Shown here: positions 26,784 to 45,809 of the stretch, one piece after another | How positions within the stretch are numbered: position 1 is the stretch's first letter | Layout: each line of letters begins with the position of its first letter | DNA from: Armatimonadota bacterium | Lineage (GTDB): Bacteria > Armatimonadota > UBA5829 > DTJY01 | NCBI GenBank assembly: GCA_023511795.1 | Contig: JAIMAU010000013.1 | Location: forward strand, 1-60,899 | Direction of reading: 5' to 3' | DNA length: 60,899 nt | The notes under the pieces: model-generated | What the model was told of the DNA's origin: nothing | The model's input: only the letters and a program-made list of their open reading frames with translations | The model's database searches: none | Position numbers and translations under genes: made by a program

Positions 26784-27422
26784 TTATTTTTTCAGCTCCT
26801 CCTGCACATACGGAAAAAGCAATCCTGCCAATTCCTTCACTTTTTTCAGGGTTGTTGCGTCGTCAGACTGAACCATCGATGTGAATCTTACTAGTGCAGA
26901 AGGTTCAATTTTACGTCTTAATATACGATAAAGATATAATTGTGTTTTGTGAGTGCCTAGGAATGTAGAAGTCATTCCTCTTGTGCTGAACCAATATACT
27001 CCAGCGGACTTCCCGACGTACTCATTTTCCATCACGAAGTACTTTGCCGTTATCGAAGTGCCAGAATTTACTGGAATTTTAGTGTCGCCTTCGTCCAATA
27101 TCGTCCATCCCGAACCCTGCAGGCACATTTCAGGTTGGTGAAAGATTCCTAAAGCTGTGCCATAGACGATTGCAATGCTTACTATGTTGCCATCCCTGTC
27201 AGTGTAATCCCGCCATAACAAACTGCTACCTGGAAGCTGTTTTTTAACTTCCTCATCAAATTGACGGTCAACGCCAGTCCAAGAGCCTATAGTTTTAGGT
27301 ATTCCCTCAAAAGAAGTAACTACTCTGCCTTCATGAGCAAAAGGTTTTACCAGGCGAGCAGCAGCGAGCAAAATGGCGAAAAAAATAACTAGGAATATAA
27401 CATTTGACTGTATTTTCGACAA
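26784..27422 (-). CDS. epsI: Exosortase-associated protein EpsI
   Basis: About 212 aa: one N-terminal membrane helix and a periplasmic EpsI domain (DUF3485). The family motif HQPEMCL is present (His98 to Leu104, counted from GTG 27431), as are WTGVDRQFD and YWFSTRG. It overlaps the exosortase gene. The longest frame starts at GTG 27431 with no ribosome site; TTG 27422 has GAGGTG 6 nt upstream, so I prefer it. EpsI occurs fused to or next to exosortases; its role is thought to be in the linked polysaccharide or sorting process but is not established. Confidence 0.88.
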   Translation of the reverse strand: MSKIQSNVIFLVIFFAILLAAARLVKPFAHEGRVVTSFEGIPKTIGSWTGVDRQFDEEVKKQLPGSSLLWRDYTDRDGNIVSIAIVYGTALGIFHQPEMCLQGSGWTILDEGDTKIPVNSGTSITAKYFVMENEYVGKSAGVYWFSTRGMTSTFLGTHKTQLYLYRILRRKIEPSALVRFTSMVQSDDATTLKKVKELAGLLFPYVQEELKK

Positions 27423-28282
27423 CCGACCCACCTCGATAGTAGTGAAAGAAAGACAAAGGCAAAAACAAGAACTATATATCCAGAATAATCATGGAAAGTA
27501 TGCATAGCCTCGTAACCCATGAGGTCGCCAACCATCCCAATCATTGCGACTCTGAGCGAATTTATGACAAGGCTTAAAGGCAGTGTGGACAAGATGAGCA
27601 CCAATTTACCCCAAAGAGGGCCCTCTTTGATATAGGCAAAAAGCGTTGAGAACGCAAACAAAGATATTAACAGCCTAAACCCACTACACGGTGCTCCGAC
27701 TTCTACAGTAATATAAGGAAGATAGATAATTACTCCAGCTCTCTCTGCATTGAATCCAAATAGTTTTAACAACCATGTGCCGCCGATTGTTGAGAGTATT
27801 TGTATTTTGAAACTCATTGTTGCAATAAGAAAGCTTGGAATTACGCACATGAAAAATAAGAATAGGATTGGGAAAAGGAGCTCTCTTAGTATTTCCATGC
27901 CGAAAAGAAGAGCCACAATGCCGCAGAGAATTATGGGAAGCATCAACCCAGCAACGCTTCGTGCGTCGCCCCAAAGCGAAAGCAGCGCAATAATACCGGC
28001 GGGTATAATGAAAAGCCAACCGCGAGCAGAGGGTTTTATTTCTAGTTTTCTTAGCTCTTTCCTCTTTAGGTATATGATGAAAGCAGAAATTGGTGGTATC
28101 AGGAATCCATGTGAATAGTAGCTATCTTTAACAGTCCACTGTTGGTACCACCATCTAAAAACAGGCACATAAAGCACCAAAAGCAAGACGCAGCTTACAG
28201 CAATTAGCGAATATGTAAGCAAATTCCAATCACTTGTGCTTTTAATGGTGTTGGAACTTTCAAGCCTTGTTTCTTTTTCCAC
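27389..28282 (-). CDS. epsH: Exosortase (EpsH/Xrt family)
   Basis: 297 aa with about eight membrane helices. The proposed catalytic triad is visible: Cys199 in GAPCSGFRLL, Arg244 in NSLRVAMIG and His264 (or 261) in MHTFHDYSGY. Exosortases are membrane transpeptidase-like enzymes that recognise the C-terminal PEP motif, helix and basic tail of exported proteins and cleave and attach them. Its likely substrate is the PEP-CTERM protein at 33643-34515. GTG start at 28282 with GGGGAAG upstream. It overlaps epsI by more than 30 bp, which indicates coupled expression. Confidence 0.93.
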   Translation of the reverse strand: MEKETRLESSNTIKSTSDWNLLTYSLIAVSCVLLLVLYVPVFRWWYQQWTVKDSYYSHGFLIPPISAFIIYLKRKELRKLEIKPSARGWLFIIPAGIIALLSLWGDARSVAGLMLPIILCGIVALLFGMEILRELLFPILFLFFMCVIPSFLIATMSFKIQILSTIGGTWLLKLFGFNAERAGVIIYLPYITVEVGAPCSGFRLLISLFAFSTLFAYIKEGPLWGKLVLILSTLPLSLVINSLRVAMIGMVGDLMGYEAMHTFHDYSGYIVLVFAFVFLSLLSRWVGCRKYSQMLYS

Positions 28283-29971: not shown

Positions 29972-32134
29972 TTATTGATCTACTTCACTTTCGTCTTGCT
30001 CTTTTGTTTTCTCTGGAATTGCGCCAAGTATTTTAGACTCCATTGGCTCTTTAACTTTGCCGTCCTTGATTATGAAGTCCTCATATGAACGCCTATAGTG
30101 GTAGTAGCCATGGCTGTCCTCTGGCCTCACTCTGTTTAGAACTGCACCAATAGTGTTTGCGCCGATTTGCTCCAGTCTGCTTCGGAATTCAGCTTCTGCT
30201 CCACGAGGCACACGACCCGCTGAGTGCACGATAATTACGTTTTTTATGATTGCCGCAAGCAGTGTACTGTCTGCAAAGGCGACGCCCGAGGGGCTATCAA
30301 ACAATACAAAATCGGCTAGCTTGCTAATATCCTCTACAAATTTCTTCATTTCCGGCGACCGGAACAATCGAACTGGGTTGCTAGGAACTGGACCAGATGG
30401 AATTAATAGTAAACCATCTTCTCCAACTGGCACAACCGCATCTGCTATTCCAAGTTGTCCGGCGAGGATATTGCTAAGCCCTTTTTCATTCTGCACGCCA
30501 AACAATATATGCAACGAGGGCCGCCTAAAATCACTGTCAACTATTATCGTTCTAGCGCCATTTCTTGCAAGGGTTCGCCCTAGATTTGCAACTGTAGTAG
30601 ATCTACCAACACCGGGCTCGGCGCTTGCAATCAGAATTGCTGGTGTTCTGGCTTCTTGATTTGCAAACCATAGGTTTGTTGATAATATTTGATAAGAGGC
30701 CTCTATTACTGGTAATTGCGTATCGCCAATTAAAGCTTTTTGGTCTGAGAGTGGTACTACCGCAAACACCGGCACACCCAACAAAGCCTCTGCTTCCTCT
30801 GGGGTCTTAATGGTGTTATCTAGATAATGGAATAAGAACGCAAGCCCCGCCCCAAGAAGTGGTCCAAAGATAATAGCTAACATCAGCTTTAAGCCTCTCC
30901 GCATTTCAAGTCTTCGCACTATAGCGGGGTCAATCTGCTGTATAGAACTAGCGTTTTGTGCTTCACGCTCTTTGATTCTTGCCTCGTCGAGTTTTGATTT
31001 TAAGAGAGAATATGTCTCCTCAGCATTCTTTTGATCAAGAGTAAGCTGAGCTAGCCTCATTTCTTTTTCAGGAAGTGTTTCTAGTTCAGGGGTTAGCTCG
31101 TCTATTAATTGTTTTGCTGCTATATATTGAGATTGCGCGGCTACGTAAGTTGCTTGCGACTCTAAAAAGTTAGAAAGAATTGAGTCATAAATTGGGTTTG
31201 AAGCTGTCGAAAGACTGGAAATTATTCGCTCTTGTTCTTTCTTTTTTAAGTCTTCAATTTGCTCGTCAATTTTTTTCAACTGAGCCAGTAACGGCTTCAT
31301 TTCCGGATGGGCATCTGTTTTTCCGCCAATTTCGCGCATTCGCTGGATATCAAGTTCTAGTTTGATACGCGAACTTTGGAGTTCTTGCCAGATTGGATTT
31401 TCCATTATTACTTCGCTGGCTTTTCTCATAATCGGTTCTTTTGCCAGCTGTTGCTTTAGGATTTCCATCTGGCTTTTTGCTTCATCGGCTTTTATTCGCG
31501 CTGATGCCGCTTGATTTTGTATACTTTCCAAGCGCTGCATCAGCAATGTGCTTTGTTCTGGGAGAGAAACAACTTTATTTTTTTCTTTAAAATCTCTTAC
31601 GGCAGCTTGCGCCTCTAGCATTTCCTGCCTTGCAATAGGCAGTCTTTGTTCGATGAACTGTCTGCTTTTTGTAGTTTCGCCACGTTGTAGCTCGTTATAA
31701 AAACGTTTAAACTCAGCCGCCAAAGTATCAGCGGTTGCTTTTGCCTCCGCTTGGCTTGTTGAGTTTACTTTGATAAGAAGAATCTCAGTGTTCTTTACAG
31801 GCTCGACAACTACGGTTCTCAGGATTTCTTCCGGCGTTGATGTTATGCCAAGTTCATATAGTGTTTGTGCAGTTCGGTCAAGTACTGTTTGACTCCCTGC
31901 TATGTATGCCAGGTTCGATACCCTGATTTGGACTTCCATGTTATATATGTACGGCGGTTGGTAGATTGTTACTTCCGCCTGCTCGGGGCGCCGCTCCATA
32001 ACCGTCGTATAAGCTTCCCATCTGGTTTTTGTAAAAAGAATGCTTAGCCCAACAATCAATACGCAAACCAGGGTAGTGGTAACAATTAGCCACTTTCTCT
32101 TGCGAAGTATCCTATAATACCGCCAAAGTTCCAA
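29972..32134 (-). CDS. Wzc-like chain-length protein fused to BY-kinase-type ATPase with altered P-loop
   Basis: 720 aa inner-membrane copolymerase. Helix 1 (about 14-34) and helix 2 (about 408-432) flank a long periplasmic coiled-coil region with a Wzz domain. The cytoplasmic ATPase has AEPGVGRSTT where bacterial tyrosine kinases have GxxGxGKS/T: the P-loop Lys is Arg511 (codon AGA). Walker A' is VDSDFRRP; Walker B reads FVLFDSPSG. The tail is Tyr-rich (GYYHYRRSY), as in autophosphorylating Wzc. The Lys-to-Arg change may impair or alter catalysis. TTG start at 32134 with GGAGGTG upstream. It controls polymer length and drives export with the Wza-like protein encoded just before it. Confidence 0.9.
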   Translation of the reverse strand: MELWRYYRILRKRKWLIVTTTLVCVLIVGLSILFTKTRWEAYTTVMERRPEQAEVTIYQPPYIYNMEVQIRVSNLAYIAGSQTVLDRTAQTLYELGITSTPEEILRTVVVEPVKNTEILLIKVNSTSQAEAKATADTLAAEFKRFYNELQRGETTKSRQFIEQRLPIARQEMLEAQAAVRDFKEKNKVVSLPEQSTLLMQRLESIQNQAASARIKADEAKSQMEILKQQLAKEPIMRKASEVIMENPIWQELQSSRIKLELDIQRMREIGGKTDAHPEMKPLLAQLKKIDEQIEDLKKKEQERIISSLSTASNPIYDSILSNFLESQATYVAAQSQYIAAKQLIDELTPELETLPEKEMRLAQLTLDQKNAEETYSLLKSKLDEARIKEREAQNASSIQQIDPAIVRRLEMRRGLKLMLAIIFGPLLGAGLAFLFHYLDNTIKTPEEAEALLGVPVFAVVPLSDQKALIGDTQLPVIEASYQILSTNLWFANQEARTPAILIASAEPGVGRSTTVANLGRTLARNGARTIIVDSDFRRPSLHILFGVQNEKGLSNILAGQLGIADAVVPVGEDGLLLIPSGPVPSNPVRLFRSPEMKKFVEDISKLADFVLFDSPSGVAFADSTLLAAIIKNVIIVHSAGRVPRGAEAEFRSRLEQIGANTIGAVLNRVRPEDSHGYYHYRRSYEDFIIKDGKVKEPMESKILGAIPEKTKEQDESEVDQ

Positions 32135-33436: not shown

Positions 33437-33465
33437 ATGTTAGCACCCCTGCAAACTCTTGTCAA
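33437..33465 (-). promoter_or_regulatory. Sigma70-like promoter candidate of the polysaccharide/exosortase operon
   Basis: Minus strand perfect TTGACA (33465-33460), 17-bp spacer, TAACAT (33442-33437, four of six matches). It would start transcription near 33430 with a leader of about 340 nt before the wza-like gene. Its -35 box lies inside the dyad at 33451-33471. Confidence 0.4.
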
Positions 33466-33471
33466 GTTTGC
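33451..33471. promoter_or_regulatory. Operator/enhancer-like dyad between divergent promoters
   Basis: GCAAACT, 7-nt spacer, AGTTTGC: a perfect 7-bp inverted repeat. Its centre is about 103 bp upstream of the predicted sigma54 start of the PEP-CTERM gene, the usual range for enhancer-binding proteins, and it covers the -35 box of the divergent operon promoter. The binding protein is unknown. Confidence 0.4.
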
Positions 33472-33537: not shown

Positions 33538-33553
33538 TGGCCCAATTCTTGCA
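33538..33553 (+). promoter_or_regulatory. Sigma54 (-24/-12) promoter of the PEP-CTERM gene
   Basis: TGGCCC-AATTC-TTGCA, preceded by T. The invariant GG and GC are exactly 10 bp apart and 14 of 16 positions are compatible with the TGGCACN5TTGCA consensus. Predicted start near 33564, leader of about 79 nt to ATG 33643. Sigma54 control of PEP-CTERM genes is known from XrtA/PrsK/PrsR systems. Confidence 0.7.
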
Positions 33554-33642
33554 CTAGTCATATTTGAATGCTGTACAAAGCAAAGTTTAGATGGTCATAA
33601 ACCGTTGTTGACTTAATTGATTTTGAAAGGATGGGTGGTGAA

Positions 33643-34515
33643 ATGAGAATAAGGGCCATATTTTTAACGTTAATTCTTACGGTGGCGCTGTTCGGAGCCG
33701 TCGCAGCAAAGCCTGCAGGGCAAGGAGCATTCCTTTTGGAATATTCAGACACAATCCAGCAGCTTGTTAGCCAAGTTGAAGATAGCCGACTTGTAGCCCT
33801 GCGGTATGCCAAGCATTTCCGCACGGACCCATCCAGCGTGCTTACCTTCTTCAGGAATGAACTGTCGGTTGTTAAACTTCCAGAGGATATGTCGCTTCAA
33901 GTCTATTATCTTGATGAAGCACATAATATAGTAAGCGAAACCCGAGAGTTTAAAGCCGGCACATGGGTATTTGCTAACAAAGCAGGTGCACCAATCTTGG
34001 AAATAGGAACAGGCAATCCACTTGCTTCCACGCTTTTAACAGGCGCACTTCCAAAGAAGACAATTGATGGGCTGAAGGCATCGAATACAAGCTCAGCAGT
34101 GAAAAATGATAAAGTTGCAGTTCAAGTTCTCGAGCAACCACCAACAGAGCTTCCGAAGATTACACCTGAAAGTGCTGGTCAGGGTGCAGCATTGGCTAAA
34201 CCCGCTGAAACTGTGGCGGCAAACACGAGCGTTCAGATACCATCAACTCCTTCACCGGTTGGAACCGGTTCTGGACTGGGTTCTGTAAATTGGCTAATTC
34301 CGCTGGGTGTTGTAGGCGTTGCAGTTGCGATGGGTGGTGGCGGAGGCGGAGGCGATAATGGCATAATAATTCCTCCAGATAACCCTCCGGATAATGGTGG
34401 TGGCGGAGGCGGAGGAACAAATCCTCCAGTTGTCCCAGAGCCTACTAGTATATTAACTTTGGCTTCAGGAATAGCTACCTTAGCATCCGTCAGAATCCTA
34501 CGCCGGCGTAAATAG
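33643..34515 (+). CDS. PEP-CTERM sorting-domain protein with internal membrane helix and glycine tracts
   Basis: 290 aa. Sec signal (1-22), a soluble domain of unknown function (about 25-150), a Pro/Ser/Thr/Ala-rich region (about 165-212), a hydrophobic segment (216-231, NWLIPLGVVGVAVAM), two Gly7 tracts (231-237, 252-258) around a Pro/Asp-rich spacer, and a C-terminal PEP-CTERM signal: VPEPTS (264-269), helix to about 283, RRRK end. Start ATG 33643 has GGTGG upstream; the in-frame ATG at 33631 has its ribosome site too close. The expected substrate of the exosortase in the divergent operon. Probably an envelope or matrix protein; the internal helix would leave it membrane-bound even after C-terminal cleavage. 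Confidence 0.9.
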   Translation: MRIRAIFLTLILTVALFGAVAAKPAGQGAFLLEYSDTIQQLVSQVEDSRLVALRYAKHFRTDPSSVLTFFRNELSVVKLPEDMSLQVYYLDEAHNIVSETREFKAGTWVFANKAGAPILEIGTGNPLASTLLTGALPKKTIDGLKASNTSSAVKNDKVAVQVLEQPPTELPKITPESAGQGAALAKPAETVAANTSVQIPSTPSPVGTGSGLGSVNWLIPLGVVGVAVAMGGGGGGGDNGIIIPPDNPPDNGGGGGGGTNPPVVPEPTSILTLASGIATLASVRILRRRK

Positions 34516-34542
34516 CTAACAGCAACTATTAGAAAGAGCAAC

Positions 34543-34581
34543 AAAAAGAAGGGTGTACCAATTTGATACACCCTTCTTTTT
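34543..34581. terminator. Strong bidirectional terminator
   Basis: A perfect 15-bp inverted repeat (34543-34557 with 34567-34581), loop of 9 nt, A-rich on the left and T-rich on the right (CTTTTTGTTTT). It ends the PEP-CTERM transcript on the plus strand and can stop the Tad operon on the minus strand. Confidence 0.9.
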
Positions 34582-34710
34582 GTTTTAATTGGTTCTTGCT
34601 TTATAAAATTTGGGGAGGACCTTTACAAGATATAAATAGTTTCCCCAATCATGAAATAGGCCGTTGTCTTAAGCATCAGCAAGCAAATAGTTTATATGCT
34701 TTGTTTTGTT

Positions 34711-44760: not shown

Positions 44761-45624
44761 TTAGAACCTAGCGCCGAGGTTAAATGTTAACCCCTTGAAA
44801 TCTGACCTTGTGGCATCAGTATATGTTAGCTCTACATGCCTGCCCTTCTTTGATTGGTATCCGAGCCCTAGTCTCCACCCAAAAGTAACCACGTCTAAAT
44901 TGTCTTCAGTACTGCCTGTGGAACGCTCGTCTTTGACATAAAAAGCTCCTATGCCGGCTTTGAAGTAAGGCGTTCCTTTAAATTGGGCTGATTCTGAAAA
45001 TTTAACATCCAAAATCAAGGGAACAAGCCTAAAATCACGCCTGCCTTCTACTTCATTTACTGTAAAGCTCCCATCGCCGTGAAAGTATCCGATGCTTAAA
45101 CCTAACGCTGTATTCCCTTGTTTGCTTAATTGATAGCCAATCTGGACTGCTGGCCACAAGCTGACCGTCTCACTGCGAAGGCTGCTTTCTAGAGGATAGA
45201 AAACCCCTATGGAAAAACTCAGTGGATTGACGCCCTTCGGTCCAAGCTCAACTTCCTGATAGCCATCTATTTTATCTCGGTCATTAACAGCAGCATCGCT
45301 AACAGCCTCGGCATATGCTCCTACTGTAATGAAAGCACCTTTTTCCTCAAAAACGAACTTCGCCTTTGCGACATAAGGCTCATCCGGTGTGCATTCTGTT
45401 ACAATAGCTTTCGCTATTACCTTGCTGTTCGGCATCACCATGATGTTAAATACCGTCCCTTTTTTAACTTGCACTGGCAAACCAAGCCACAGAATATTCT
45501 CAGATCTATCAACTACAATACCTCTTACTGGCTTGCCTTCCTCTTGTGCACATAATGCGGGCATAACCAAAGACGCCGACAATACCAATAACGCCAAGCA
45601 AATTAAATGTCGGTTAAGGTGCAT
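44761..45624 (-). CDS. Outer-membrane beta-barrel protein heading the Tad locus
   Basis: 287 aa. Signal peptide (ICLALLVLSASLVMPALCA), an SH3-like beta domain (about 25-110, VDRSENILWLGLPVQVKKG), then an eight-strand-like barrel with amphipathic strands ending LTYTDATRSDFKGLTFNLGARF, a classic C-terminal Phe. ATG 45624 lies behind AAGGAGGAGG. No specific family recognised. Being 91 bp upstream of the pilin gene on the same strand, it may be an outer-membrane partner of the pilus. Confidence 0.75.
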   Translation of the reverse strand: MHLNRHLICLALLVLSASLVMPALCAQEEGKPVRGIVVDRSENILWLGLPVQVKKGTVFNIMVMPNSKVIAKAIVTECTPDEPYVAKAKFVFEEKGAFITVGAYAEAVSDAAVNDRDKIDGYQEVELGPKGVNPLSFSIGVFYPLESSLRSETVSLWPAVQIGYQLSKQGNTALGLSIGYFHGDGSFTVNEVEGRRDFRLVPLILDVKFSESAQFKGTPYFKAGIGAFYVKDERSTGSTEDNLDVVTFGWRLGLGYQSKKGRHVELTYTDATRSDFKGLTFNLGARF

Positions 45625-45793
45625 GCCGTTCCTCCTCCTTGTTGACGCAAAAATATAGATGACTGCCAATTATCAATAAAGACATAAATTTTCATTTAAC
45701 AGAGCACCTAGATTTTTGGGAACAAATAGCCTTCCTAGCCCTTTGTGCTATATTAAAACAACCACACTGAAGTTATTATTTAACTTGAGGTGT

Positions 45794-45809
45794 TGCAAAA
45801 AATATGCCA
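45794..45809 (-). promoter_or_regulatory. Sigma54 (-24/-12) promoter upstream of the beta-barrel/Tad locus
   Basis: Minus strand TGGCAT-ATTTT-TTGCA, GG and GC 10 bp apart, preceded by T. Only one position differs from TGGCACN5TTGCA. Predicted start near 45783, leader of about 160 nt to ATG 45624. The rest of the 430-bp gap (45625-46056) is AT-rich and has no ORF I can support. Confidence 0.65.

Follow-up and report, generated by a model that had tools for sequence, protein, structure and literature searches.

In Proteobacteria, genes coding for PEP-CTERM proteins are known to be associated with sigma54 control. The survey of Haft et al. (2006) described a sigma54 motif (motif 2), a motif 1 located ca. 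63 nt upstream of it, and the proteins PrsK, PrsR, and PrsT, all of them restricted to Proteobacteria within that survey, with a motif-to-start distance of 71 +/- 38 (PMC1569441). A PEP-CTERM gene shown to depend on RpoN is pepA of Aquincola tertiaricarbonis (PMC9850573). A different kind of sigma54 activator, with no DNA-binding domain, is represented by CtcC of Chlamydia and FlgR of Helicobacter (PMC7482065, PMC3162934). In the open-licence literature, we found no report of sigma54-controlled PEP-CTERM genes in the Armatimonadota.

The stretch of DNA analyzed here (60,899 nt of one armatimonadotal contig, hereafter the window) carries, on the forward strand at positions 33538 to 33553, the sequence TGGCCCAATTCTTGCA, which is almost certainly a functional sigma54 promoter, judging by its sequence, its conservation within the class, the alignment with a sister species, and the genome-wide pattern of such sites. 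The GG-N10-GC core is exact and there are two deviations (C for A and A for G) from the consensus TGGCACG-N4-TTGCW, giving a match score of 18.6 of 20.3 by our own weighting. The initial annotation had placed a canonical sigma54 promoter ca. 90 bp before a gene for an exosortase substrate, in a phylum remote from Proteobacteria, and this description holds: the host belongs to the Armatimonadota and the last base of the site is located 89 nt 5' of the ATG at 33643 (there is also an in-frame ATG at 33631). The transcription start is predicted near 33564. In the sister species, the site is fully kept within a nearly identical run of ca. 50 bases, unchanged around the site itself, whereas the two species of the genus are 91.5% identical over the 660-bp stretch as a whole.

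The gene behind this site (33643 to 34515, forward strand) codes for a protein of 290 aa with a signal peptide, a DUF6777-like domain, a proline/glycine-rich linker, and a C-terminal VPEP sorting signal, i.e., the features of an exosortase substrate are present (signal peptide, PEP motif, transmembrane stretch, and basic tail). The sorting signal model PF07589 was matched (E up to 0.05) by 23 of 30 homologues; the window protein itself scores 19.5 bits (14.8 in hmmscan), below the curated PEP-CTERM cut-off of 20.7. DUF6777 (PF20568), a domain of unknown function, was matched at the same E limit by 24 of the 30 family members, the best at 2e-8, with the window protein again below the curated cut-off; in these proteins, the domain is fused to a PEP-CTERM signal. 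Among solved structures, the 30 homologues had no relative at E up to 1. The gene is probably transcribed alone, since a strong hairpin, the probable terminator, is found 3' of it at 34540 to 34584. The presumed sorting enzyme is an exosortase (Exosortase_EpsH) encoded on the reverse strand at 27389 to 28282. It reaches 149 bits with the XrtA model (TIGR03109), for which the cut-off is 208; XrtW is the best-fitting model (186 bits), yet the score is also below its cut-off, as it is for all other named subfamilies compared, so that only the general exosortase models are passed.

A protein search of 101 related genomes (E limit of 0.001) recovered the PEP-CTERM family protein in 53 of them. For 72 copies, 34 from the class and 38 from outside it, the 360 nt 5' of the gene were scanned for the highest-scoring -24/-12 match, with a threshold of 17.5 of 20.3. 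Within the class, 28 of the 34 homologues reach the threshold, eight of them with a perfect TGGCACG-N4-TTGCA, and six remain under it; the reversed and the reverse-complement controls of the same regions gave 0/34 each. At least one site-bearing homologue is present in 20 of 23 class genomes. Outside the class, the threshold is reached by 12 of 38 copies (1 of 38 in the reversed and none in the reverse-complement controls). The 29 class sites aligned at a threshold of 17.1 yield TGGC[AC]C[GA]NTTCTTGCA, with flanks that carry little information, which is, in sequence terms, a textbook sigma54 promoter logo.

The genome codes for the sigma factor itself: there are two intact rpoN genes with the RpoN box ARRTV-KYRE, one standing alone (contig C16) and the other within the flagellar gene cluster (contig C1), so that the search for rpoN proposed in the initial annotation came out positive. 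A genome-wide pattern modeled on the class sites (the site of the window included), with up to one mismatch allowed, had 42 matches versus 3 for the reversed pattern. Among 13 exact matches, 10 avoid all open frames of at least 150 codons, and an 11th falls within a 159-codon frame of the opposite strand that is probably no gene. Three exact matches precede PEP-CTERM genes, a number that is partly built in, since sites of this kind had served to derive the pattern; for the same reason, the enrichment value (p = 8e-6, with an assumed gene number of 2700) is too favorable. Others precede genes for a TPR protein, a trypsin-like protease, a BioY protein, and secreted proteins. A chance match, with the gene transcribed from an ordinary sigma70 promoter, would find some room in the sigma70-like matches of the region and in those other consensus matches that fall inside genes. 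However, when the 552-bp upstream region was regenerated under an order-1 Markov model, only ca. 0.4% of the versions had an equally good match on the same strand, a comparison with random sequence that the initial annotation had also called for, and this low probability, the excess over the reversed pattern, and the conservation in the class compared with its controls make such a coincidence extremely improbable.

The gene had been described as the lone PEP-CTERM gene. This is correct for the window, where the family search found no other, and incorrect for the genome, which carries about 11. Sites before other PEP-CTERM genes were accordingly found in part: of the ca. 11 genes, four have a -24/-12 site (one of them has two) and seven have none. 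Contig C30 carries two codirectional PEP-CTERM genes in succession on the reverse strand (L102, 1413 to 2853); the first codes for a paralogue of the window protein and has a -24/-12 site. On contig C4 (L103), one PEP-CTERM gene is preceded by two -24/-12 sites 110 bp apart (63750 to 63765 and 63860 to 63875).

A candidate for the control of the promoter is found at the left edge of the window. There, on the reverse strand (2 to 2176), a domain search identified the 5' 725 codons of a GAF-PAS-HisKA sensor kinase gene, cut by the contig end. The kinase has three GAF, one PAS, and one HisKA domain and is cytosolic by appearance. Its remainder is located on a 4.1-kb contig (C34, L100), together with an activator without a DNA-binding domain and a receiver-PilZ gene. 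The same order is found uninterrupted in the sister species (L289:5684-10913), with an intact kinase of 897 aa, an activator of 400 aa, and a receiver-PilZ protein, and there the kinase and the activator adjoin sequence equivalent to the left edge of the window. The receiver-PilZ gene has a -24/-12 site of its own in both species. The activator is made up of a receiver, Sigma54_activat, and a lid, with nothing beyond, and measures 390 to 402 aa across orthologues. All members of a domain-checked set of 23 orthologues, which includes one genome outside the class (G030) and leaves out G027, had this make-up; HTH_8 was among the matched families of none, and kinase motifs were found directly 5' of the activator in 21. 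In another genome outside the class (G029), the activator homologue has an HTH-like tail by eye, and the PEP-CTERM homologue has no site.

This pair was compared with the proteobacterial regulators, as the initial annotation had invoked PrsK/PrsR control, either ancient or carried along with an XrtA system. There are parallels with the proteobacterial systems: a -24/-12 promoter at a similar distance from the gene (89 nt versus 71 +/- 38 [PMC1569441]), an exosortase substrate, often in a single-gene transcript, rpoN, and a two-component pair near an exopolysaccharide locus, here with kinase and regulator in the neighborhood of the exosortase locus. PrsR was also among the better-scoring models. 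But the two best activators reached 434 and 401 bits with PrsR (TIGR02915), for which the cut-off is 502.6, and both fit the AtoC model better, AtoC being the best fit of the locus-linked one. With PrsK (TIGR02916), only the generic C-terminal kinase half was matched (at most 95 bits versus 300), and the N-terminal part of PrsK was not seen in the linked kinase. The Fis-type DNA-binding domain that defines PrsR is found neither in the locus-linked regulator nor in its 22 orthologues. By eye, the expected stretch of the window showed no TTTACA, the end of motif 1. A de novo EM search over the class upstream regions, of limited power, found no shared motif either; its scores were only slightly to moderately above those of a few shuffled sets, with scattered motif positions, and a degenerate enhancer could escape it. 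The phylum, the regulator, the kinase, the lack of a recognized motif 1, the exosortase below the XrtA cut-off, and the DUF6777-like target all set this locus apart, and the proposal of PrsK/PrsR control, as well as that of its antiquity or joint transfer with XrtA, is not supported. It is very unlikely that the gene is controlled by a true PrsK/PrsR system, whether inherited or acquired by transfer together with the sorting machinery.

Counterparts of the activator itself are CtcC and FlgR. As in these proteins, a receiver and a sigma54-activating AAA+ domain are present with no HTH, there is a partner kinase, and the nearest model is AtoC, as reported for CtcC. The differences are that the genomes studied here have other sigma54 activators, that the pair is linked to a surface-protein and exopolysaccharide locus, and that action without an enhancer is a prediction in our case. 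The promoter is probably driven by the linked kinase and its activator lacking a DNA-binding domain, and control of the CtcC/FlgR type seems the best-supported mechanism, considering linkage, domain content, and co-occurrence across genomes. We infer that the linked activator acts at the promoter at 33538 to 33553, that it needs no enhancer, and what kind of signal it answers to. The PEP-CTERM surface-protein gene would stay silent under the sigma54 promoter until the complex is opened by an activator ATPase. This activator would be the response regulator whose gene follows that of the kinase at the window edge, reduced to a receiver and a sigma54-activating AAA+ domain, and it would work without a dedicated enhancer, as is thought for CtcC and FlgR. 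Switched on by the GAF/PAS kinase, it would make the display of this sorted protein on the surface dependent on an internal signal.

Alternatively, a real sigma54 promoter could answer to an enhancer-binding protein of the usual type, either the flagellar NtrC-type regulator (C1) or another one, perhaps through the inverted repeat GCAAACTCTTGTCAAGTTTGC at 33451 to 33471, which is located 67 nt 5' of the -24 element and is a candidate activator site. We consider this rather unlikely. The genome does have such a regulator, with HTH_8, i.e., a Fis-type HTH, encoded beside the flagellar rpoN, and the inverted repeat falls within conserved sequence, at a distance that would be plausible for an activator site. 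However, the repeat is found only in this species and its sister, being missing from the other homologues, and repeats of this quality are expected by chance in ca. 19% of such regions, so that their number is not significant. Besides, the flagellar regulator is absent (E limit of 1e-60) from the class genomes G003, G005, G007, G011, and G024, in which the promoter is still there.

The distribution across genomes is consistent with control by the linked activator. Among the 28 genomes of the class, 23 have both the activator and the PEP-CTERM family and five (G002, G010, G013, G021, and G025) have neither (Fisher p = 1e-5), with absence defined at E limits of 0.001 for the PEP-CTERM family and 1e-60 for the activator; in G027, a genome 67% complete, a second match of partial length represents the activator orthologue. 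The rpoN gene is absent or broken in all five genomes without the family, and family and rpoN agree in 27 of the 28, the exception being G011 (69% complete), in which activator, site, and PEP-CTERM family are present and rpoN was not found. Of these five genomes, four also lack the exosortase and one, G021, has it, and therefore loss of the sorting enzyme explains the co-occurrence only in part. Along the same lines, when the phylum sample is restricted to the 80 genomes with an exosortase, the presence of the PEP-CTERM family is associated with that of rpoN (Fisher p = 0.0007). A fair reading is that two or three independent losses underlie the co-occurrence, as the genomes are related and these tests count lineages repeatedly.

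In this class of Armatimonadota, the DUF6777/PEP-CTERM protein may equally well be, or not be, under sigma54 and an enhancer-independent two-component activator recruited independently of PrsK/PrsR. It looks like a parallel recruitment because Haft et al. (2006) saw this type of promoter only before proteobacterial PEP-CTERM genes, and shared ancestry with the proteobacterial control is less likely than independent recruitment, given that the activator is apparently a different one, with no DNA-binding part. If true, there would have been at least two separate origins of sigma54 control over sorted surface proteins. The same promoter logic in a second phylum, with a different kind of activator, would suggest that exosortase substrates are well served by tight, ATP-driven control and that such control has been reached repeatedly. 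The activators described here would also be a candidate family of sigma54 activators without a DNA-binding domain beyond Chlamydia and the Helicobacter/Campylobacter group, and a setting for studying how promoters are chosen with no enhancer.

There is a second strong -24/-12 site in the window, TGGCATATTTTTTGCA, on the reverse strand at 45794 to 45809. It precedes the gene for a predicted secreted protein (44761 to 45669), which shows weak similarity to PagL. On another contig (C18, L239), an exact -24/-12 site at position 31207 is located ca. 300 nt 5' of the gene for the TPR protein mentioned above, for which PrsT is the best NCBIfam model, with a score, obtained from a partial protein, of 151 versus a cut-off of 312.
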